The position numbers and the translations under genes were made by a program. This document shows, one piece after another, positions 1 through 37,778 of a DNA stretch of 52,296 nt (position 1 is the stretch's first letter; every line of letters starts with the position of its first letter). Under the pieces are notes generated by a model. It ran no database searches, was not told the DNA's origin, and saw only the letters and a list, made by a program, of their open reading frames with translations. Source of the stretch: Bdellovibrionales bacterium. GTDB taxonomy: Bacteria; Bdellovibrionota_C; UBA2361; SZUA-149; JAGRAN01. The stretch is taken from the NCBI GenBank assembly GCA_020434585.1, contig JAGRAN010000061.1, forward strand, positions 1 through 52,296, written 5' to 3'.

Positions 1-657
1 TTTCGCAATTTCAGCTTCGAGCTGAGCTCTTGTTAGCTGGGATAGCTTTTTAATGAGCTGCTTTCTGAACTCTCGGTCTGCAACAGACCCCAGAATAAGA
101 ATCTTGCTCTCTGATGCGCCAGCTATCAATGCGGCCTGCAGGTCATCTGGCAGCGACAGGATCTCTAAGCTGCGCTGAACCATTGCCTTTGAAATCCCGA
201 GGCGCTTAGCGATATCTCGAATACTCCAGGTGTAAGACTCCTTCAGCTGTCCTATCGCCAAAGCGCGTTCCATTGGAGACAGATCTTCACGCTGCAGGTT
301 TTCAGTAAGCTGCTTGGCTAGAGTGCTATCTTCGCTGTCTCTAGCTGCAACCAAAGCCGGAACAACCTTAAGTCCAGCCTTCTTGGCCGCTCGATAGCGG
401 CGCTCTCCAGCAACGAGCTTGTAAGTCCCGCCATCCGTCATTTGAACGATAAGCGGCGAAAGGACTCCATACTCCTTGATCGACTGGGAAAGCTCTTCAA
501 TCGACTCTTCGTTAAAAACGCGGCGCGGCTGATCGGGATCGAGGTCAATTTCGCTCAAAGAGAGTTCACGATAGGGATTACCGCCAGTGGCACGAGAGGC
601 CAGACTGGGTCCGCTTAGCAAAGGATTTATATCAAATTTGACCTTCTTTCTCGCCAC
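1..657 (-). CDS. parB: Chromosome/plasmid partition protein ParB (C-terminus off the window)
   Basis: Centromere-binding ParB/Spo0J family protein, truncated by the left edge; 219 residues are visible. The start is a GTG at 657, chosen because GAGG lies 9 bases upstream and the N-terminus then reads MARKKVKFDINPL. The ParB N-terminal domain is clear: DPDQPRRVF near residues 41-49, the CTP-binding GERRYRAAKKAG box near 85-96 and ENLQREDLSPMERA near 120-133. A helix-turn-helix (SIRDIAKRLGISKAMVQRSL) follows near 147-166. It overlaps the end of parA by 26 bp in another frame, so the two are one translationally coupled operon. ParB-family CTPases load at parS and segregate replicons together with ParA. 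No canonical parS palindrome was seen nearby. Family certain; parS specificity unknown. Confidence 0.95.
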   Translation of the reverse strand, partial: MARKKVKFDINPLLSGPSLASRATGGNPYRELSLSEIDLDPDQPRRVFNEESIEELSQSIKEYGVLSPLIVQMTDGGTYKLVAGERRYRAAKKAGLKVVPALVAARDSEDSTLAKQLTENLQREDLSPMERALAIGQLKESYTWSIRDIAKRLGISKAMVQRSLEILSLPDDLQAALIAGASESKILILGSVADREFRKQLIKKLSQLTRAQLEAEIAK

Positions 658-1414
658 GCTTCAGTACCTCATCGGCAAGGTTTTTATAGTCCTCCGCACC
701 ACTAGAGCGCGGATCGTAAGAAAAGATCGAGCAGCCCCGGGCTGGGGCCTCGGCCAAAGCGACATTGGTTCGCACGACTGTATCGAACACTAAATCGCCA
801 AAATATTCTCGCACCGTGTCAGCCACGCTTTTTGCCAGCCGTCTTCTGGAGTCGTACAGACACAACAAGACTCCGCCAACTCCAAGACCGGGATTGTAAG
901 CGCTTCTGACCTGATCAACCGTATCAAGCAGCTGACGCACGCCGTGCAGCGCAAGATACTCGCTTTGAACAGGGACGATCACTCGGCTACAAGCGACCAG
1001 CCCGTTAAGCGAAAGCAGGCCGAGGGAAGGGGGACAGTCGATGATTATAAAGTCGTAGTCATCGATAACTGAACCAAGCGCCTGGCGTAGCAACAATTCA
1101 CGCCCAATCACTCCTCCCAATTCGAGATCTGCTGCGCTTAGCAACAAACTCGCGGGCGCCAGATACAAACTGTCTTCGATTTGAACTACGACTTCGTTTA
1201 ATTTCTTTCCGTGGCGCAGCACATCATACATGGAGAGTGAATCTGAATCGTCATCAGCTGCATAGCCGAAATGGGCGGAGAGGTTCGCCTGGGCATCGAG
1301 ATCGATCATCAAAACTCGCTTGCCCAGGTAGGCTAGGCCGGCTGCGAGGTTTGCGGCAGTTGTGGTTTTTCCGACACCGCCTTTCTGATTAACAACTGCG
1401 TAAACTATACCCAC
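632..1414 (-). CDS. parA: ParA-family partition ATPase
   Basis: 260-residue deviant-Walker ATPase of the ParA/Soj/MinD superfamily, the usual length for a chromosomal-type (type Ib, no N-terminal HTH) ParA. The deviant Walker A is NQKGGVGKTTTAANLAAGLA near residues 9-28, the A' motif is LMIDLDAQANLSAHFG near 35-50, and Walker B is DFIIIDCPPSLGLLS near 120-134. It starts at GTG 1414. A GGTAC/GTACC inverted repeat lies 13 bp upstream and may be an autoregulatory site. It forms an operon with parB and points away from rep. Role: ATP-driven positioning of ParB-parS complexes. A chromosomal-type ParAB beside an iteron origin is an arrangement seen on large plasmids and chromids. Confidence 0.95.
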   Translation of the reverse strand: MGIVYAVVNQKGGVGKTTTAANLAAGLAYLGKRVLMIDLDAQANLSAHFGYAADDDSDSLSMYDVLRHGKKLNEVVVQIEDSLYLAPASLLLSAADLELGGVIGRELLLRQALGSVIDDYDFIIIDCPPSLGLLSLNGLVACSRVIVPVQSEYLALHGVRQLLDTVDQVRSAYNPGLGVGGVLLCLYDSRRRLAKSVADTVREYFGDLVFDTVVRTNVALAEAPARGCSIFSYDPRSSGAEDYKNLADEVLKRGEKEGQI

Positions 1415-1426
1415 GGCGCTTATCTC

Positions 1427-1446
1427 GGTACACGATTCGAAGTACC
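1427..1446. promoter_or_regulatory. Inverted repeat upstream of parA, candidate operator
   Basis: GGTAC (1427-1431) and GTACC (1442-1446) form a perfect 5-bp inverted repeat around ACGATTCGAA, 13 bp upstream of the parA GTG. The element GGTACACG...TTCGAA recurs at 1606-1622 with a slightly longer middle. It overlaps an iteron-like core (CACGATTCGA, 1431-1440). The position suits ParA/ParB or Rep autoregulation; that role is inferred. Confidence 0.4.
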
Positions 1447-1620
1447 AACTTGCTGTATCACAGCCCCAATATAATAATCCAGCTGATGGAAATTACTAGG
1501 AAAACTAAGCTCTCCAATTGTTAATCCGTCAGGACAGTTTCTACGCTTACCAACAGCTTTGCTTAAGCCGCGGCGGTCTAAAACTCAGGTAACGAGTACC
1601 ACCGCGGTACACGTGTTTCG

Positions 1621-1670
1621 AACTAAGTACGGCCCCGAATGCTATCCTCAGCTCAAACTGAGGCTTAGTT
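1621..1670. repeat. Nested inverted repeat in the origin region
   Basis: AACTAAG (1621-1627) pairs with CTTAGTT (1664-1670), and inside it CCTCAG (1646-1651) pairs with CTGAGG (1658-1663) around a 6-base loop. The arms are perfect. It lies between parA and the iterons and directly follows the isolated iteron at 1612-1621. It could be a cruciform, a binding site or part of an untranslated leader. Confidence 0.45.
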
Positions 1671-1789
1671 CAATACCCGTGTACTTGCGCGATTGAGAGT
1701 AACGGTATCATCTCAGGCATTTTTACACGAAAATAACTACTGTTATATCAGCTACTTATGGCAGCGCATGGTCGTTATGCATAGATCAT

Positions 1790-2025
1790 CGTGAATCGAG
1801 CTAACAACTTTCAGCCGAAAAGCTCGTGCTTCGAACTAAAACTCCAAATATCGTGTTTTGAATTAAGCTTTGAAATGCCAAAACGTGCATCGAGGTTAAG
1901 CATCTCGTGATTCGACTTGCAGCGGCACGTGTATCGACCCCAACCCTGTCGCGCATTGAACTAATTCACATCGTGCTTTGACTAAAGCGCTATCGTGAAT
2001 CGACCGCTAAAAGCTCGTGATCTGA
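1790..2025 (+). repeat. Iteron array (ten copies of CGTGnnTCGA), replication origin
   Basis: Direct repeats of a 10-bp core, consensus CGTGnnTCGA and usually preceded by T, start at 1790, 1825, 1852, 1884, 1906, 1928, 1950, 1972, 1994 and 2016. The last seven are spaced exactly 22 bp (two helical turns), so an initiator would bind them on one face of the helix. Copies at 1852, 1950, 1972 and 2016 are degenerate at one or two positions (for example CGCGCATTGA at 1950). An isolated extra copy lies at 1612-1621. The 12-bp spacers are not conserved, so this is not a simple tandem duplication. The array sits just upstream of the rep gene and beside an AT-rich stretch, the standard layout of iteron-controlled origins. 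Confidence 0.9.
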
Positions 2026-2205
2026 AATAAAAAACAGGTCCTAATTGGTTGATTTTACACTCAAAAAACCTCTCTTAACTAATAAACTCTGACTAAAAAG
2101 TACTGTTGTTAAAACATTACGTACACTGATAAGAACAAGAATAACCGACTTAAAGTAAAAGTTAGTTAAAGTAATTAGCGTTCTGTAAAAAGCTGCTGCG
2201 AGCTC
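2026..2205. other. AT-rich stretch next to the iterons, probable DNA-unwinding element and rep leader
   Basis: About 180 bp between the last iteron and rep, strikingly AT-rich with many short A and T runs and recurring AACTAA/TTAGTTAA words near 2077-2180. In iteron plasmids the unwinding element sits at this place. It must also contain the rep promoter, but no confident -35/-10 pair can be singled out. A weak DnaA-box-like TTATGCATA lies on the other side of the iterons at 1775-1783. Confidence 0.55.
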
Positions 2206-3714
2206 ATGCAACAACAAGTTTTGCACCTCGGTGCCGAGGACACAAGCGACTCATCGCCCCCAAAAAGCAGGGGTAAAGTCGACTTTGCTCGCGACGAAAT
2301 GAACTTGGCGGAATTTCCACTCGCAGTGCTTTCGACTCGTGCCAATCCCAAAGTCAAAACCCTGGAGTTTCGCGATTCGCAGCGTCTACGCGACGGCGAA
2401 GTGATCGAGCGCGAGTGGATCATCACTGGCGCAGATAAATTTGGCCTACCGACAAGCACCGATGATGACGTGATGCTGGGCCTGATGCGGTTGACGATGG
2501 ATCAGGGATTTCGTTCCAGCAAAGTTTTTTTCACTAGATACGAATTACTGAAGATTTTGCGGTGGACGACAGAGGGAAGAAGTTACTCCCGGCTCACCAA
2601 AAGCCTCGACCGCTTAAGCGGTGTGAGAATCCGTGCGACGAACGCCTTCTATGACAACAAATCTAAAGCCTATCAGACCTGCAACTTCGGCATTATCGAC
2701 GCGTATGAAATTAACGACAGCAGGGGAGGGACCCGCAGCACAAACGGCGCGGAACAGCCCTTAAGCTTTTTCATTTGGAGCGAAATGCTCTTTGAGTCGT
2801 TTAAAGCGGGGTTCATCAAAAAGCTCGACCTTGATGTGTATTTTACTTTGCGCAGTGCTGTCAGCCGCAGATTGTATCGTTACTTGGACAAGCATTTTTA
2901 TTACAAGCCATCCGTCGAACTTCCGCTCAAACTGCTGGCGTTTGAAAAACTTGGCTTGTCCCGCAGCTACAAATACGACTCGTCAATAAAACAGCAGTTA
3001 GAGCCGGCAATCGAAGAACTTACCGAAAGCGGCTTCATCAGCTCAGTCGAATACAGTCAGCGAACAGGTGAAACTTCGATCAAGTTTCGCAGTGCTGCCA
3101 ATCTGCGTCGCCCGACCGCACCAGCACCGGACACTGCTCAGGCTCCAGCCGCCGACGAAGAGCGCGATAAAGTTCAACGGGCACGTGTTGCAGAGTTACT
3201 GACAAAGCGAGGCTTAACCCGGCGCCAGACCAAGAAGCTGCTCTTCGATAAAACTTTGGCCGACTTCGAGAAGATCGAAAGGATTATCGCTTACTACGAT
3301 TCGCTGCTCGCGTCGGATGACCAGCGTATATCGAGGAATCCAATTGGATTCTTGTACCGTGCGGTCGAAACGCCGTTTCGATTTAAAATTCCAAAAAGCT
3401 TTCGGGGGACGCCGCCGCGGCCTGTCCCGCAGCAGTTTTCGGCAGTGCGCAGTGATGAAAAATTTGATGCTCAGCTGCGAGCCTTGTACAGAAAATACCG
3501 GAAGAAAAAAGCTGAGCAGCGCCGAAGCTCGATGAGCAGGGTGGAAGTAGGCGAGATTTACAAAATGTTCGAAGAACGAAACCGCTCCATGAAAGCGAAC
3601 CTTAGCGCTGAGCGCTTCGAGGAAGCGATTGACGGCTGTGTCGATGACGAACTAGCAAAGCAGGCCGGAGTTGAACCGTTCGAGCACTGGCGTCAGAAAA
3701 TTTCAGGTGACTGA
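2206..3714 (+). CDS. Replication initiator protein (RepA/RPA family)
   Basis: 502-residue initiator that should bind the 22-bp-spaced iterons directly upstream. The N-terminal two thirds match my memory of the replication initiator A family: EFPLAVLS near residue 32, FFTRYELLKILRW near 108-120, SYSRLTKSLDRLSGVRI near 126-142 and FGIIDAYEINDSRGGT near 161-176. These are winged-helix-type blocks. The C-terminal third (about 300-502) is charged, helix-rich and poorly recognised; it may recruit DnaA or helicase. ATG 2206 is the first in-frame start after the origin, with only a weak GAGC Shine-Dalgarno; ATG 2299 is an alternative. A strong terminator follows at once. Family assignment is from memory of conserved blocks; the iteron context supports it strongly. 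Confidence 0.85.
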   Translation: MQQQVLHLGAEDTSDSSPPKSRGKVDFARDEMNLAEFPLAVLSTRANPKVKTLEFRDSQRLRDGEVIEREWIITGADKFGLPTSTDDDVMLGLMRLTMDQGFRSSKVFFTRYELLKILRWTTEGRSYSRLTKSLDRLSGVRIRATNAFYDNKSKAYQTCNFGIIDAYEINDSRGGTRSTNGAEQPLSFFIWSEMLFESFKAGFIKKLDLDVYFTLRSAVSRRLYRYLDKHFYYKPSVELPLKLLAFEKLGLSRSYKYDSSIKQQLEPAIEELTESGFISSVEYSQRTGETSIKFRSAANLRRPTAPAPDTAQAPAADEERDKVQRARVAELLTKRGLTRRQTKKLLFDKTLADFEKIERIIAYYDSLLASDDQRISRNPIGFLYRAVETPFRFKIPKSFRGTPPRPVPQQFSAVRSDEKFDAQLRALYRKYRKKKAEQRRSSMSRVEVGEIYKMFEERNRSMKANLSAERFEEAIDGCVDDELAKQAGVEPFEHWRQKISGD

Positions 3715-5553: not shown

Positions 5554-6414
5554 ATGGGAATTAACATACGGACTAACGTTGCATCATTAAATGCGCAGCG
5601 TAATTTAGGCGCAACATCAGATCGCTTAAACAAAGCGTATTCGAGGTTGTCTTCAGGTTTACGTATCACGCGGGCATCTGACGATGCTGCGGGATTGTCA
5701 ATTGCTGAACAGCTCAAAGCGGATCAGCGAATTGCAAGCGTTGCGGTACGAAACGCCAACGACGGTATTTCTATCATCGCCATTACTGACGGTGCGATGA
5801 ACGAAATCACCAACATTCTTACTCGTCTGGCGGAGCTCGCAGAACAGTCGGCAAACGGCGTATTCAGCGTCGATCAGCGCTCGGCTCTCGATCTTGAATT
5901 CCAAGCACTCGCAAGTGAAATGGAGCGAATCGCTCTTACCACTTCGTTTAACGGTTTGGCACTGCTTTCCGGTGGCGCAAGCGTAACGTTCCAAGTAGGT
6001 TTCGACGGGTCAAATAACTCGATTGTAACTTATTCCGGCGTTGCTGCTACATTGTCTGACTTAGGTCTGGCAAACTCCGGTTCTTCCCAATTCCTTTTCT
6101 CGATTAACGATACAACTGTTCCGGGCGCTCAAGCGGCGTCTCGAACGGCGATTGATGCGATTAAACTGGCGATTCAGTCGATTACTCGAGACCGAGGAAC
6201 ATTGGGTGCCGCTGAAAGCCGACTGAACTCAGCGATCAGCAACCTGCTTGTTGCCAGAGAAAACTTCGCTTCTGCTGAAAGCCGTATTCGTGACGTTGAT
6301 GTGGCTGAGGAAGCTGCTGAGCTGACAAGGCTCAACATCCTCCAGCAGGCTGCCGCTTCTGTCTTGGCTCAAGCCAACCAGCAGCCAAGCTTGGCCCTTT
6401 CACTGCTGCAATAG
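5554..6414 (+). CDS. fliC: Flagellin
   Basis: 286-residue flagellin of ordinary short type. The N-terminal D0/D1 region begins MGINIRTNVASLNAQRNL and contains RLSSGLRITRASDDAAGLSI near residues 32-51; the C-terminal D1/D0 contains ESRIRDVDVAEEAAELTRL and ends with PSLALSLLQ. The central variable part (about 150-215) is short. The protein is exported by the flagellar type III apparatus and polymerises into the filament. The start has GGAGGG upstream. It has its own sigma-54 promoter and strong terminator, so it is monocistronic. Two further flagellin-related genes lie at 35931 and 42329. Confidence 0.96.
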   Translation: MGINIRTNVASLNAQRNLGATSDRLNKAYSRLSSGLRITRASDDAAGLSIAEQLKADQRIASVAVRNANDGISIIAITDGAMNEITNILTRLAELAEQSANGVFSVDQRSALDLEFQALASEMERIALTTSFNGLALLSGGASVTFQVGFDGSNNSIVTYSGVAATLSDLGLANSGSSQFLFSINDTTVPGAQAASRTAIDAIKLAIQSITRDRGTLGAAESRLNSAISNLLVARENFASAESRIRDVDVAEEAAELTRLNILQQAAASVLAQANQQPSLALSLLQ

Positions 6415-21961: not shown

Positions 21962-23089
21962 CTAATAGCTGCCCCGTCCGTGGGAAATGGCGAGAGAGTC
22001 TTGTTCATAGTCAACGGTTGCCAGGTCTGGCCATCCGTCGTTGTTAACATCCGCTACGGCGGCTGAATAAGCTTTGTTCTCTGAGGGTATGTGAATCGGT
22101 TGTTCGTCAAAACGGCCGGCGCCCCTGCCGAAATAAACCGAGGCATACTTTTGATCGTGATGAGTGGTAATCATATCGACGAAGCCGTCTCGATTGATGT
22201 CCGCTGCTTCGATGTAAATCAGAGGATCTGCTGCGGGGAAATCGCTGTGGCGTTCAAACGTGCCGTCGCCTAGTCCCAAGTGAAGCGATATACCTCCGGG
22301 TTCAGTCGAATGCGCGACCATAAGATCTAAAATACCGTCCTGGTCAATGTCGGCCAGCGCGATAGAGTAAGGCAAATCTCCAGTCGGCACGACTAGTCTT
22401 TCAGAAAATTCGCGATCGCCCTGGTTAATATACACCGAGCTTCCGTCGTCTTTGTGGTCGCTCGAAATTAAGTCCGGAAGACCGTCAAGATTGAGATCCG
22501 CAGCTCGAATGGCGATGGTTTTTCGGCCGGTAGGAAGTGAAATCGGTTCAGCAAAACTTCCTCCGCCGTTATTAAAAAGCACAATCATTCTGGCCCCAGG
22601 ATAGTCCGATGCCGCTACATCGAGTAATCCATCACCGTCGATATCTACGGCAGTGACATTGTACGGAGCGCCGCCGACATGGATAAAAGCTGCAGGGCTG
22701 AATTTTCCGTCCCCCATCCCTGAGAAGATGACAATTCCACCTTTGTTGCAGTTGCCGATAACGAGATCTACTGTGCCGTCGTTGTCAAAATCTCCTAGGT
22801 CGATTGATGCTGGGCAGCTTTCGGTGTCGATGGGGTCAATCTCGGTTAGTTCGCCAGACCAGCTCCCCAAAAATACCGAGACTGTCGCATCGTTGCGATT
22901 GGCTGCCAAAATGTCTGGATATCCGTCTGCATTAATATCGCCTACCACGACATCCAGCGGCTTATGGCCGGTCTTGTAAAACGTACGCGGGTGAAAGAGG
23001 TCGTAGATATAAATGCCGGCCCCGGTGATCCCGGCGGCTGAAAACAGGACGAGTAGTACGCGGCTTAATCGGCTAAGATTCATCGGCAA
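21962..23089 (-). CDS. Membrane-anchored FG-GAP/VCBS seven-repeat beta-propeller protein
   Basis: 375 residues. One N-terminal hydrophobic segment (about 10-29) acts as signal or anchor. The rest is seven repeats of 49-50 residues, each with the calcium-binding-like DxDxDG motif: DINADG 51, DFDNDG 100, DIDGDG 149, DLNLDG 198, DIDQDG 247, DINRDG 297, DVNNDG 347. Seven such repeats close an integrin-alpha-like propeller. Such domains bind ligands or surfaces outside the inner membrane. The same seven-repeat plan occurs inside the flagellin at 35931. Not in an operon. Confidence 0.85.
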   Translation of the reverse strand: MPMNLSRLSRVLLVLFSAAGITGAGIYIYDLFHPRTFYKTGHKPLDVVVGDINADGYPDILAANRNDATVSVFLGSWSGELTEIDPIDTESCPASIDLGDFDNDGTVDLVIGNCNKGGIVIFSGMGDGKFSPAAFIHVGGAPYNVTAVDIDGDGLLDVAASDYPGARMIVLFNNGGGSFAEPISLPTGRKTIAIRAADLNLDGLPDLISSDHKDDGSSVYINQGDREFSERLVVPTGDLPYSIALADIDQDGILDLMVAHSTEPGGISLHLGLGDGTFERHSDFPAADPLIYIEAADINRDGFVDMITTHHDQKYASVYFGRGAGRFDEQPIHIPSENKAYSAAVADVNNDGWPDLATVDYEQDSLAISHGRGSY

Positions 23090-31882: not shown

Positions 31883-33610
31883 CTACTCAGTAACAGGGAC
31901 GCATGACAGTTCGTAATCTTCGTCGCAGCCGGGACAAACACAACATGTGCGGTAGTTCCAGATCACATAGCGCGTCTCGCCATTGTCGGTTCCGTCGTAG
32001 AGTCCTGGAGGGAAAAGTTCCGGCCTGAGTCGGCGATCTGCTTCGTCAACAGTAAAGCAGGTGTCGCTCTTTTCTTTAACCGGATAGATTCGCTGAATTT
32101 TGTCTGGTGGTGTTGGCCAAGAAACGTATGTCGATGATCGCGGTCCCCAGAAGTAACCGCTGCTGCGGTTTACGTTTGTTGACTTGGTATTCTTGCCAGG
32201 TGTGGACGGGTGCATCTCGCTGAACAGTGCACCCTCGTAATTGAACACGTTTGTGCGAACCTCATCATCCCACTTGCACCAGCTGGCCCATTCGTTAGAG
32301 CGCAGTGCGGTAGAAATCGTCCCTGCGGATTCGAGGTCCGACTGATGTTCCCCAACCAGCGGGTAGACCTGTCCGACTTCCGGCTGCATACAATTCCGTC
32401 TAAGCGGTGTTGAAGAGTTCTCCTTGATCCCCAGCTTGTTGCCTGGAACTGCTTGGTCGATTGGATTTTTCCAATGCAGAATTTCTGCTCCTTCGTCCGA
32501 CGCACGGTAGCTTGCGCAAGTGTTTTTCTTAAGTTTTGAAAGATTACCCAAAACATCGCTCTGCTTGAAAACTGCAGTTTCCGGAACGTTGGCCCATTCC
32601 TTTTTGTAGAGCTTGTTGCAGCTGGAGCCGTCGTTGACGCGTTCTTTGGACATTTCGGGAAAGCGCCAGCGTTGTGTCATCTTCCGGTCAGCGTTTTCAG
32701 TCATCATTCTGGGCCAGATGTTAGTGCCGAGCCACGGCCGGGTGCACTTCGGAGTAAAGCACTCCGCCCAACCTTGAACCGGATTAAACACATCGTGATA
32801 AGCTTCTACGTCGGTCCATGTTCGGTACAAGTGGGCTTCAAGGTTCGTGCTCTCAATGCCCAAGCCACTAGAGCTACCGACGCTGGTAACGGCGCTGTTG
32901 CCCCGGTGTGGAGCTTTTCTAAGTCCAGCTGGAAGCTTCTTTGGTTTACCTCCCTTGACTCCTGCGCCAGGCATTCCGTCGACAATCTTCTGCGCAACTT
33001 TTGGTCCGAGAATTGTATCCAGCGCTGCTCGCCACGTTGATTCGTCAGGAAAGCAACCGCCGTAGAAATCCATGTACGTGCCGTTATCTAAACCTATCTT
33101 CTTATATGCAGAGGGGGTTTTGACCGGCATGCCGTTTGGATCGGTCACCATGCTGCCGACGGGTCCCATCAGCGCGCTAATGCAGAAGTTGTTCACGGTA
33201 ACGACGACTTCTGGCCACCAGTATCCAACGTATGCCCAAGGACATTTATCGCAAGTGGGGTAACAGCAGCAGCCCAGTATCTGCATGTCGAAGCATTCGT
33301 TGCGATATTCGCCGAAACCTTTCTTGATAATCTCGTCGTCGTCCTCTTTCCAAACCTTCTCCCATTCACTGTTTCCCTTGATCCATGGGTGGCGTTTGTA
33401 TTTTGGATCGTTGAACAAGGAGCCATTGCTGTTGTGCTTTGCTGAAATTTGTTGACCGACCGCGGTGTTGCTCAGAACGGAATCGATAACTGATTGAGCA
33501 TTGTCTTTTATGTCAGCTTCGACTTCACTGTACGAGTCCGCTTCGCATCGTGCTGCGGGCAATATCAAGCTGATTAAGACTGCCAACCAAAACTGTTTCC
33601 TGCTCCCCAT
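31883..33610 (-). CDS. TraU-like conjugation protein (cysteine-rich, tentative)
   Basis: 575 residues from ATG 33610 (GAGG nearby), chosen over the longer frame starting at 33727 because a signal peptide (GSRKQFWLAVLISLILPAAR) begins there. CFDMQILGCCCYPTCDKCPW near 110-129, followed by VGYWWPEVVVTVNNF, is reminiscent of the cysteine-rich start of TraU and of the ICE TraU-like family, where xGxCxWxxC precedes a strand with PxVVVxxxN. At least 14 cysteines occur, including the C-terminal CCVCPGCDEDYELSC. TraU acts in the outer-membrane/periplasmic part of F-type mating pair formation. The length (575) is well above F TraU (330), so this is a distant relative at best. Neighbour TrbC-like gene supports it. 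Confidence 0.4.
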   Translation of the reverse strand: MGSRKQFWLAVLISLILPAARCEADSYSEVEADIKDNAQSVIDSVLSNTAVGQQISAKHNSNGSLFNDPKYKRHPWIKGNSEWEKVWKEDDDEIIKKGFGEYRNECFDMQILGCCCYPTCDKCPWAYVGYWWPEVVVTVNNFCISALMGPVGSMVTDPNGMPVKTPSAYKKIGLDNGTYMDFYGGCFPDESTWRAALDTILGPKVAQKIVDGMPGAGVKGGKPKKLPAGLRKAPHRGNSAVTSVGSSSGLGIESTNLEAHLYRTWTDVEAYHDVFNPVQGWAECFTPKCTRPWLGTNIWPRMMTENADRKMTQRWRFPEMSKERVNDGSSCNKLYKKEWANVPETAVFKQSDVLGNLSKLKKNTCASYRASDEGAEILHWKNPIDQAVPGNKLGIKENSSTPLRRNCMQPEVGQVYPLVGEHQSDLESAGTISTALRSNEWASWCKWDDEVRTNVFNYEGALFSEMHPSTPGKNTKSTNVNRSSGYFWGPRSSTYVSWPTPPDKIQRIYPVKEKSDTCFTVDEADRRLRPELFPPGLYDGTDNGETRYVIWNYRTCCVCPGCDEDYELSCVPVTE

Positions 33611-33924
33611 CGTCCCATCCTCGCTCCCAGCCTGTTCAGTAAAAGGTGGGACAGAGAGCCCAAGGGAATCTGAGAAGGAAATGGGCGAATGGCGGCGCCG
33701 AGATAAATCCCGGAGCGGGGGTGTCATTACGTAGGGGGTGTTGGTTTCTCAATCGGGGGTGTGTTGTGTGCTCCAGATTGTCGGATGAACCAGCTACCGC
33801 CATTTTTATCCCTCGAACTCTCTGTCCTTGATTAAGTGTTGGTCAATGTTTTGCGGGAAGTTTTGGGGGTCCCTCTCCGCGAACACAATGGTTATAGGAT
33901 AAAATTAGGGGGCTGTTGCTTAAA

Positions 33925-35770: not shown

Positions 35771-35930
35771 CTCGCGCTTGGCCATCTAAAAATTAACAAA
35801 ACTTAATGATTGTAGGGAAATAGCTCCAGGCTGCGTCCTAAGCAGTGCTAAACATTACAGTCGCTTAGGTCGACTTAAGTATTGAAGCTCAAACGGATTT
35901 TGACTGAAAAAGGAACAAGGATGTTCTGAG

Positions 35931-37778
35931 TTGCTTAGCGTTAGAACAAATCTAGCTGCCATTCGTTCGCGCCGAATTCTCGGTGGTACCACTCGTGCGC
36001 TCGAAGAATCCTTTAACAGACTTTCGTCTGGGCTTCGCATAAACCGAGCAAGTGACGATGCTGCAGGTTTAGCAATTGCTGAAAGTCTTAAAAGCGACGC
36101 GCGGGTTTATTCGCAAGGCATTCGCAATATCAATGACGGATTAGGGCTGCTCAACATCGCAGAGGGCGGCCTAAGTGAACTTTCAGGAGTTCTGATCCGA
36201 GTTCGTGAACTTACGACACAAGCTGCAAACGGAACTCTATCGCTTACACAACGCCATGCGCTCGATGAAGAAGCAAACGCGCTGATTCAAGAATACAACC
36301 GCATTACATCGACTACGGAATTTAACGGGCTTCAATTGCTGGATGCATCGTTGTCAGAGCTTACTATTCAAGCCGGCTTCGGTGAGCTGGGCAGCCTATT
36401 GTTGGGACTTGGTGGTGAACTTGCTAAGGACGTCGGTGACGGAACTTATGCCGATACCTCCATCGACGTTACGCTAGGTACTGAACTACAAGGGGTTGCA
36501 GTCGGAGACCTTAATGGCGACGGGCTAAACGACTTGATAGGAGGGGATGCGGATTCTGCGACTCTTTTCTATCGACTAGCAAACAGTGACGGAACATTCC
36601 AGGCTGAACAAACTCTCGACCCCGGACTTGGCAACGTAGATGTTTTCACTGCAATTGCTGACCTCAATAACGACGGCTACAACGATGTAGTGGCACAGGC
36701 AGGGAGTTATCTTTCAGTTTTTCTGGGGGACGGAGCGGGTGGATTTTCCTCTGCAATTAACAGTGCGGATGGCAATGGAGGTAATTTTAACCTTACCGAC
36801 ATCAACAACGACGGCAACTTGGATGTTTACGGCAGTCGAAACGGGGAACTCATAGTTTCGTTCGGCAACGGGGACGGTACATTCGATTCACCAGTTGTTT
36901 CTGCTACCGGGATAGCAACGGCGACTGCTCAATTCGGTGATTTTAACGGCGATTCGATTGTAGACGCATTGGTCAGGGACGGAAGTGGTAACGCACAAAT
37001 ATTCTCGGGGGCTGTATCTGGAACGTTTACGAATACATCGCAGTTAACCACCGTCAATGCTGCGAGCAGTTTTACGGTTGGAGATGTTAACAACGACGGA
37101 CTTGACGACATCATTTCGGGTTCGGCGGCGGGTAATGTGATTGAAATCTATTTGAGCACGGGAAGCGGGTTTGAGCTTGATCAAACAATTGCAGAAACAA
37201 ATCCTAGCGTGTTGAGAATGATCGATGTGAACGGAGATGGGCACGAAGACATGCTTACTAGAAGGTTTGCCGGCTCAGCTATGCTCGATATCAGATTGAA
37301 CGACGGAGAGGGAAACTTCTCCACTGCGGACTCAATAGACCTTACGGGAGCGGGTGAATTTGTGCTGGCGGATATATCAAACGACGGCGTGTTAGATGTG
37401 TTGCTTTATCCCGCCGACTCTACGCCAGTAAGCATTTACGAAGCCAATACTGAGAGCTCTACGCAGCTGGCCGCCGTCAACATCAATACTCAGGTTCGAG
37501 CAAGGGCCACAATGAATCAGTTAGACAAAGCGCTTGAGCGTATATCTTCCGAGCTGGGCGCGATTGGATCGTTCCAGAGCCGACTGGAGGTAGCCGCCAA
37601 TACCCTGCGAACAACAACGACGAATTACGCTGATGCGGCTAGTCGAATTGAGGACGTTGATGTGGCCAGTGAAGCGGCGAATCTGGCCAGAGTTTCAGTG
37701 CTGCAGCAGGCTGGCGCAGCGGTGCTAAGCCAGGCAAATCAGGTTCCTGCGCTGGCGTTAGGTCTTTTGTCTGCTTGA
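35931..37778 (+). CDS. Flagellin with a seven-repeat FG-GAP/VCBS propeller in place of the variable region
   Basis: 615 residues from a TTG start; an ATG at 35921 runs into a stop after one codon, and AAGGA lies 10 bp before the TTG. Residues 1-150 are flagellin D0/D1 (LSVRTNLAAIRSRR, RLSSGLRINRASDDAAGLAI), and 515-615 the C-terminal D1/D0 (ASRIEDVDVASEAANLARV, ending PALALGLLSA). Between lie seven repeats of 46-51 residues, each with a DxNxDG-type motif: 193, 244, 290, 337, 385, 432, 481 (the one at 337 ends in Ser, the one at 481 is DISNDG). That would make a closed integrin-like propeller, displayed on the filament. No sigma-54 or clear sigma-28 promoter is seen; a GG-GC pair upstream is off spacing by one. 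Confidence 0.9.
   Translation: MLSVRTNLAAIRSRRILGGTTRALEESFNRLSSGLRINRASDDAAGLAIAESLKSDARVYSQGIRNINDGLGLLNIAEGGLSELSGVLIRVRELTTQAANGTLSLTQRHALDEEANALIQEYNRITSTTEFNGLQLLDASLSELTIQAGFGELGSLLLGLGGELAKDVGDGTYADTSIDVTLGTELQGVAVGDLNGDGLNDLIGGDADSATLFYRLANSDGTFQAEQTLDPGLGNVDVFTAIADLNNDGYNDVVAQAGSYLSVFLGDGAGGFSSAINSADGNGGNFNLTDINNDGNLDVYGSRNGELIVSFGNGDGTFDSPVVSATGIATATAQFGDFNGDSIVDALVRDGSGNAQIFSGAVSGTFTNTSQLTTVNAASSFTVGDVNNDGLDDIISGSAAGNVIEIYLSTGSGFELDQTIAETNPSVLRMIDVNGDGHEDMLTRRFAGSAMLDIRLNDGEGNFSTADSIDLTGAGEFVLADISNDGVLDVLLYPADSTPVSIYEANTESSTQLAAVNINTQVRARATMNQLDKALERISSELGAIGSFQSRLEVAANTLRTTTTNYADAASRIEDVDVASEAANLARVSVLQQAGAAVLSQANQVPALALGLLSA

Follow-up and report, generated by a model that had tools for sequence, protein, structure and literature searches.

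The open reading frame at positions 35931..37778 (+ strand) of the window, the stretch of 52,296 nucleotides from a Bdellovibrionales bacterium that was analysed here, is a genuine flagellin-propeller-flagellin gene and neither a chance arrangement nor a product of misassembly. We hold with a probability of about 0.55 that the filament of this bacterium displays Ca2+-stabilised propellers as variable surfaces for recognition or adhesion.

The window gene encodes a flagellin with an inserted domain

The gene encodes 615 amino acids in an uninterrupted reading frame that begins with TTG, nine bases downstream of a Shine-Dalgarno sequence AAGGA (35917-35921, + strand). All parts described in the following lie on the same strand. 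The N-terminal half of the flagellin D0/D1 region (residues 1-150, 35931..36380) was recognised by Pfam as Flagellin_N (residues 4-140, E 3.7e-35, 121.4 bits against a curated cut-off of 26.6) and forms long helices in the structure model. The C-terminal D1/D0 half (residues 521-615, 37491..37775) matched Flagellin_C at residues 529-613 (E 6.4e-19, 68.5 bits against a cut-off of 23) and is modelled as a helix from 521 to 614. Since both matches lie far above their cut-offs, the conserved flagellin ends of the original prediction were found as described. When the two ends were compared with the PDB, the matches were filament-forming flagellins. Between them, at about residues 165-510 (36423..37460), seven stretches matched FG-GAP_3 above the curated cut-off (E 7.7e-38, 129.3 bits), and this region was assigned as a seven-bladed FG-GAP/VCBS beta-propeller from Pfam, AlphaFold2 and Foldseek. 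No Pfam peptidase family matched the window protein, which thus lacks the metallopeptidase that defines a flagellinolysin.

The seven repeats are predicted to close a propeller

A putative Ca2+ motif of the DxDxDG type was found in the loop between strands 1 and 2 of all seven blades. The motifs are DLNGDGLND at residue 193 (36507..36533), DLNNDGYND at 244 (36660..36686), DINNDGNLD at 290 (36798..36824), DFNGDSIVD at 337 (36939..36965), DVNNDGLDD at 385 (37083..37109), DVNGDGHED at 432 (37224..37250) and DISNDGVLD at 481 (37371..37397). Their starts and their spacing of 46-51 residues are exactly those read from the sequence earlier. When 91 full-length members of the family were compared, the Asp residues at motif positions 1, 5 and 9 were 98-100% conserved in each blade, about 99% over all seven motifs, and 100% conserved in blade 1. 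Automatic counting gave seven repeats in 80 of the 91 members and six in the other 11. For the calcium dependence that had also been proposed, this conservation is the one line of evidence, and it suggests that the loops bind calcium.

The fold was predicted with AlphaFold2 from the window protein and homologs of related loci only. The whole protein was modelled with a pLDDT of 81.5 and a pTM of 0.72, and the propeller by itself with 84.9 and 0.82. Strand 1 of blades 1 to 7 starts at residues 186, 238, 287, 333, 380, 425 and 476, respectively, and the last blade receives its outer strand from the strand before residue 180, which is the usual closure of a propeller. Foldseek aligned the modelled propeller over its full length with the AAL2, PVL and PAL lectins, ITFG2 in KICSTOR, BBS proteins and TcB, with TM-scores of about 0.6-0.69 to known propellers over about 360 columns. 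A phmmer search of the PDB with the single propeller sequence gave no match; a profile was used instead and detected PVL (2.7e-17), AAL2 (4e-16) and integrin alpha-V (about 1e-7). We conclude that the seven four-stranded blades are predicted to form a closed toroid. The earlier claim that seven repeats would close a propeller is thus borne out at the level of prediction, as two AlphaFold2 models, Foldseek and Pfam agree, and the open structure that would have spoken against it did not appear.

The fungal lectins PVL and AAL2, which are among the closest solved folds and significant in the profile search, likewise have seven blades with Ca2+ loops (PMC4483166, PMC8023676). Their blades are about 56 residues long, whereas those of the window propeller have about 49 and are embedded in a flagellin. 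The GlcNAc pocket of PVL and AAL2 consists of Asn/Asp...Gly-Gly-Trp...His in the 4-1 segment (PMC4483166), and its Trp and His residues are conserved in the lectins but missing in the propeller flagellins. The window protein contains no tryptophan, 60 of the 91 propellers have none either, and the AAL2 pocket pattern occurred in one of the 91. This excludes a GlcNAc site of the PVL type as a feature common to the propellers, and a function as a GlcNAc lectin by analogy was rejected. No recognisable binding pocket was found in the propellers; other ligands are possible. The integrin-alpha propeller also shares FG-GAP repeats, Ca2+ loops of the DxDxDG type and seven blades. In contrast to it, the window propeller has the motif in all seven blades, is accompanied by none of the integrin accessory domains and belongs to a bacterial filament protein.

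The source genome holds a family of propeller flagellins

About 18 flagellin genes are encoded in the genome that contains the window (G000), an assembly of 3.8 Mb in 304 contigs that is 94% complete. Eleven of these, including the window gene, show the flagellin-propeller-flagellin design, two of them truncated by contig ends. The ten paralogs are spread over separate contigs and share 37-53% identity with the window protein. In 8 of the 11, the start codon assigned by alignment appears to be TTG or GTG. Two short flagellins (C102 and C229:30155) carry degenerate FG-GAP repeats, and the flagellin of contig C89 (G000:C89:1066-3012, L019) matches a PD40 (WD40-like) propeller in place of FG-GAP. 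Such a PD40/TolB-like match, a propeller type unrelated to FG-GAP, was seen in the same slot in four genomes of the phylum (L019, L160, L171 and L198), that of L160 just below the Pfam cut-off. Four plain minimal flagellins are also encoded. One of them lies in the window (5554..6414, + strand; 286 residues, no insert, Flagellin_N E 1.2e-39) and could possibly co-polymerise with the propeller flagellins.

The start of the window contig encodes a ParA-like ATPase and an RPA-type replication initiator (632-3714), so the contig may be part of a plasmid or a second replicon. A cysteine-rich open reading frame of 614 residues without a Pfam match lies on the - strand (31883-33727).

Distribution and origin

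Full-length propeller flagellins were found in 19 of 46 genomes of the phylum, a sample of one class, and in 12 of its 24 families, with best E values below 1e-130. Some genomes have operon-like arrays, such as four genes about 16 bases apart in G020:C33:32962-40377, and at least 17 distinct members occur in G020. No full-length member was found outside the phylum among about 337 broadly sampled genomes and about 90 genomes of two further phyla; the matches in one outside genome (G129) span the FG-GAP part only. A GTDB-wide pattern scan returned, among the matches listed, propeller members in Bdellovibrionales bacterium HKST-UBA20, 25 and 28 and in the 'bacterium' records Co_bin.265 and 6_bin.32, and the remaining flagellins among these matches had no such repeats. 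In the genomes sampled so far, the architecture is apparently confined to one uncultured phylum. In a related genome, an open frame of 4585 residues with many FG-GAP matches encodes a giant repeat protein (G005:C60:68631-81329).

When the flagellin end domains were placed in a FastTree phylogeny of 144 tips, the propeller flagellins formed one group that also holds the short versions of the phylum and two of the four PD40 types. The other two PD40 types fell outside it, beside FlgL. By parsimony, five changes of the propeller state are needed on this tree. Members of the same genome are often found close together in the tree, a sign of lineage-specific expansion. The tree thus suggests a single origin of the propeller flagellins followed by such expansion.

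The propeller changes faster than the flagellin ends

In closely related pairs, taken from one genus or one genome, identity was mostly 83-95% in the N-terminal end and 48-65% in the propeller. The dN values were 0.02-0.13 for the N end, 0.08-0.23 for the C end and 0.26-0.49 for the propeller, and fourfold sites were near saturation in every segment. Near-saturated synonymous sites together with the low dN of the N end indicate purifying selection on a real gene. The constrained ends and the end-domain tree both place the window protein with the flagellins. Since synonymous divergence is alike in the ends and the propeller, the difference reflects faster amino-acid change, and a recent exchange of propellers among the conserved ends is not supported. 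Nor was overall positive selection shown: dN/dS of the propeller was about 0.3-0.4 where dS could be estimated and below 1 wherever it was measurable. These values fit a propeller that is diversifying yet still constrained.

The substitution was then resolved along the blades in 29 close pairs. It was highest in the 2-3 loops (0.78) and the 4-1 segments (0.66), and lower in the 3-4 loops (0.37), the Ca2+ loops (0.26) and the N-terminal D0/D1 (0.21). In the model, the chain enters the propeller before strand 4 and exits after strand 3, both at the Ca2+ side. By this topology, D1 should join there and the opposite face should be turned outward. This face, with the 2-3 and 4-1 loops, is the most variable one. 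Part of this bias may occur in any FG-GAP protein, as these loops lie opposite the Ca2+ motif. An orthologous non-flagellin FG-GAP protein was looked for as a control of loop variability and none was found. The window itself encodes a stand-alone FG-GAP protein of 375 residues with a hydrophobic N-terminus (21962-23089, - strand), for which the sister genome contains no close ortholog.

Putative CsrA sites in the flagellin leaders

A hairpin scan of the leader of the window gene detected a putative CsrA-binding hairpin, GGAACA(AGGA)UGUUCU (35912..35927, + strand), whose loop contains the Shine-Dalgarno sequence. Unbiased Gibbs sampling of the 18 flagellin leaders of the source genome recovered ACAAGGA(A/T)G near most start codons. 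The core ACANGGA(A/T)GT was present in 11 of 107 flagellin leaders, where 0.24 were expected from the same loci, and hairpins with a GGA loop and at least five pairs were present in 24 of 83 propeller-flagellin leaders, compared to a mean of 8.8 and a maximum of 16 after shuffling. CsrA-type GGA hairpins were seen over the ribosome-binding sites of most flagellins of the source genome, several with a second upstream site. Such GGA-loop hairpins fit the CsrA consensus. Contig C93 carries a flgL-csrA-fliW cluster. Together with the leader motif, this makes a Hag-FliW-CsrA type of flagellin homeostasis (PMC6529632) likely, with the hairpins as candidate CsrA sites. No sigma-28 promoter shared by the paralogs was found; only 2 of the 18 leaders came within two mismatches of one.

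Homologs of the export component FlhA and the cap protein FliD are also present. The source genome has at least three matches to the FlhA family and three genes resembling FliD (G000:C15, C2, C73/C159; C100, C51), a hint that it may encode more than a single flagellar or related export apparatus.

Comparison with known flagellins

The outer domains of Salmonella and E. coli FliC and of the sheath flagellins have unrelated folds, and sialidases are propellers. FliC D2-D3 and the outer-domain-sheath flagellins resemble the window protein in that a variable outer domain is set on a conserved core (PMC8931119), whereas here the outer domain is predicted to be one closed propeller. Flagellinolysin has a gluzincin metallopeptidase in the hypervariable region, and like the window protein it thus has a folded functional domain between conserved D0/D1 ends, displayed along the filament (PMC5595980). 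Its insert is a peptidase in place of the seven-bladed FG-GAP propeller, and flagellinolysins are scattered across phyla, whereas the propeller flagellins have so far been seen in one phylum with many paralogs per genome.

The original prediction knew of no propeller insert in a flagellin. For FG-GAP this stands in the literature searched, as we found no report of a flagellin with FG-GAP, VCBS or beta-propeller domains; a passing mention may be among the 61 domains that Eckhard et al. (2017) found in flagellin hypervariable regions (PMC5595980). For propellers in general it has to be narrowed, since in Table 1 of that survey the ten commonest domains include Sialidase, in 10 flagellins, and do not include FG-GAP. 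Several flagellins per genome are known as well, with six in B. bacteriovorus (PMC2791853) and up to seven listed for multi-flagellin bacteria (PMC8306008), compared to about 18 genes here, 11 of them with FG-GAP propellers. Flagellins with a functional outer domain are known, and what is notable here is the fold, the copy number and the apparent confinement to one phylum.

What the propellers may do

We propose that the window protein is a true filament subunit whose outer domain would be a closed FG-GAP/VCBS propeller of seven blades, each with a Ca2+ loop. The Ca2+-loop face would sit on the filament core and the variable opposite face would point outward. With the intact D0/D1 ends, the filament would be an array of propeller heads that serve as a multivalent recognition or adhesion surface along its length. 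The paralogs would provide different binding faces, possibly mixed with the plain minimal flagellins, and CsrA-FliW would hold synthesis in check at the hairpins over the ribosome-binding sites. A flagellar filament has 11 protofilaments and an axial repeat of about 52 Å, and the surface per subunit would be roughly 57 x 52 Å at a radius of 100 Å. AAL2 has a diameter of about 51 Å (PMC4483166). One ring of roughly 50 Å per subunit would thus nearly tile the filament.

A fast-changing outer domain on conserved ends would also be expected if the propellers bind nothing particular and form a diversified, protease-resistant coat, comparable to the D2/D3 domains and outer-domain sheaths elsewhere, that alters the surface and stiffness of the filament and evades phages, predators or neighbours that target flagella. 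The lack of a recognisable ligand pocket agrees with such a coat, as do the outer domains that form sheaths or screw surfaces and affect motility (PMC8931119), and with two unrelated propeller folds in one slot, the shape itself may matter. However, a passive coat would not need large sets of paralogs in a genome, and exactly seven blades with all seven Ca2+ sites have been kept through about 50% divergence, which argues for more than a passive role. We regard the coat as a serious but clearly less probable explanation than recognition or adhesion.

Export by the flagellar apparatus without assembly, with the proteins released or limited to a short filament segment, ranks well below both and is improbable. 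It would account for the number of flagellin genes, which far exceeds the need of a filament, the plain minimal flagellins could build the core, and Vibrio secretes proteins homologous to flagellin (PMC6692518). Against it, both ends are under strong purifying selection, as their dN values show, and match flagellins that form filaments. Finally, the fragmented source assembly could have joined a flagellin and an FG-GAP gene by misassembly or annotation. We consider this negligible, since the identical fusion recurs across 19 genomes, among them MAG records named independently, with a uniform seven-blade design and length and under purifying selection. The misassembly that had been named as a reason to doubt the gene is thus answered by the ten paralogs on other contigs and the homologs in 18 further genomes.

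Recognition or adhesion is therefore our preferred reading. A bolder form of it, which we offer tentatively and consider rather less probable, is that the filament is a programmable display lattice of Ca2+-stabilised propellers with the variable face out, a dozen or more paralogs as specificities and a second propeller fold in the same slot. Flagellins with functional inserts have seldom been characterised. A phylum-level family that keeps seven blades, diversifies the face predicted to lie outward and reaches at least 17 copies in a genome would offer a natural scaffold for display, and the old question of the role of flagellin outer domains and of multiple flagellins would become directly testable. 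If this is true, these bacteria would have a filament with a repertoire of adhesins.
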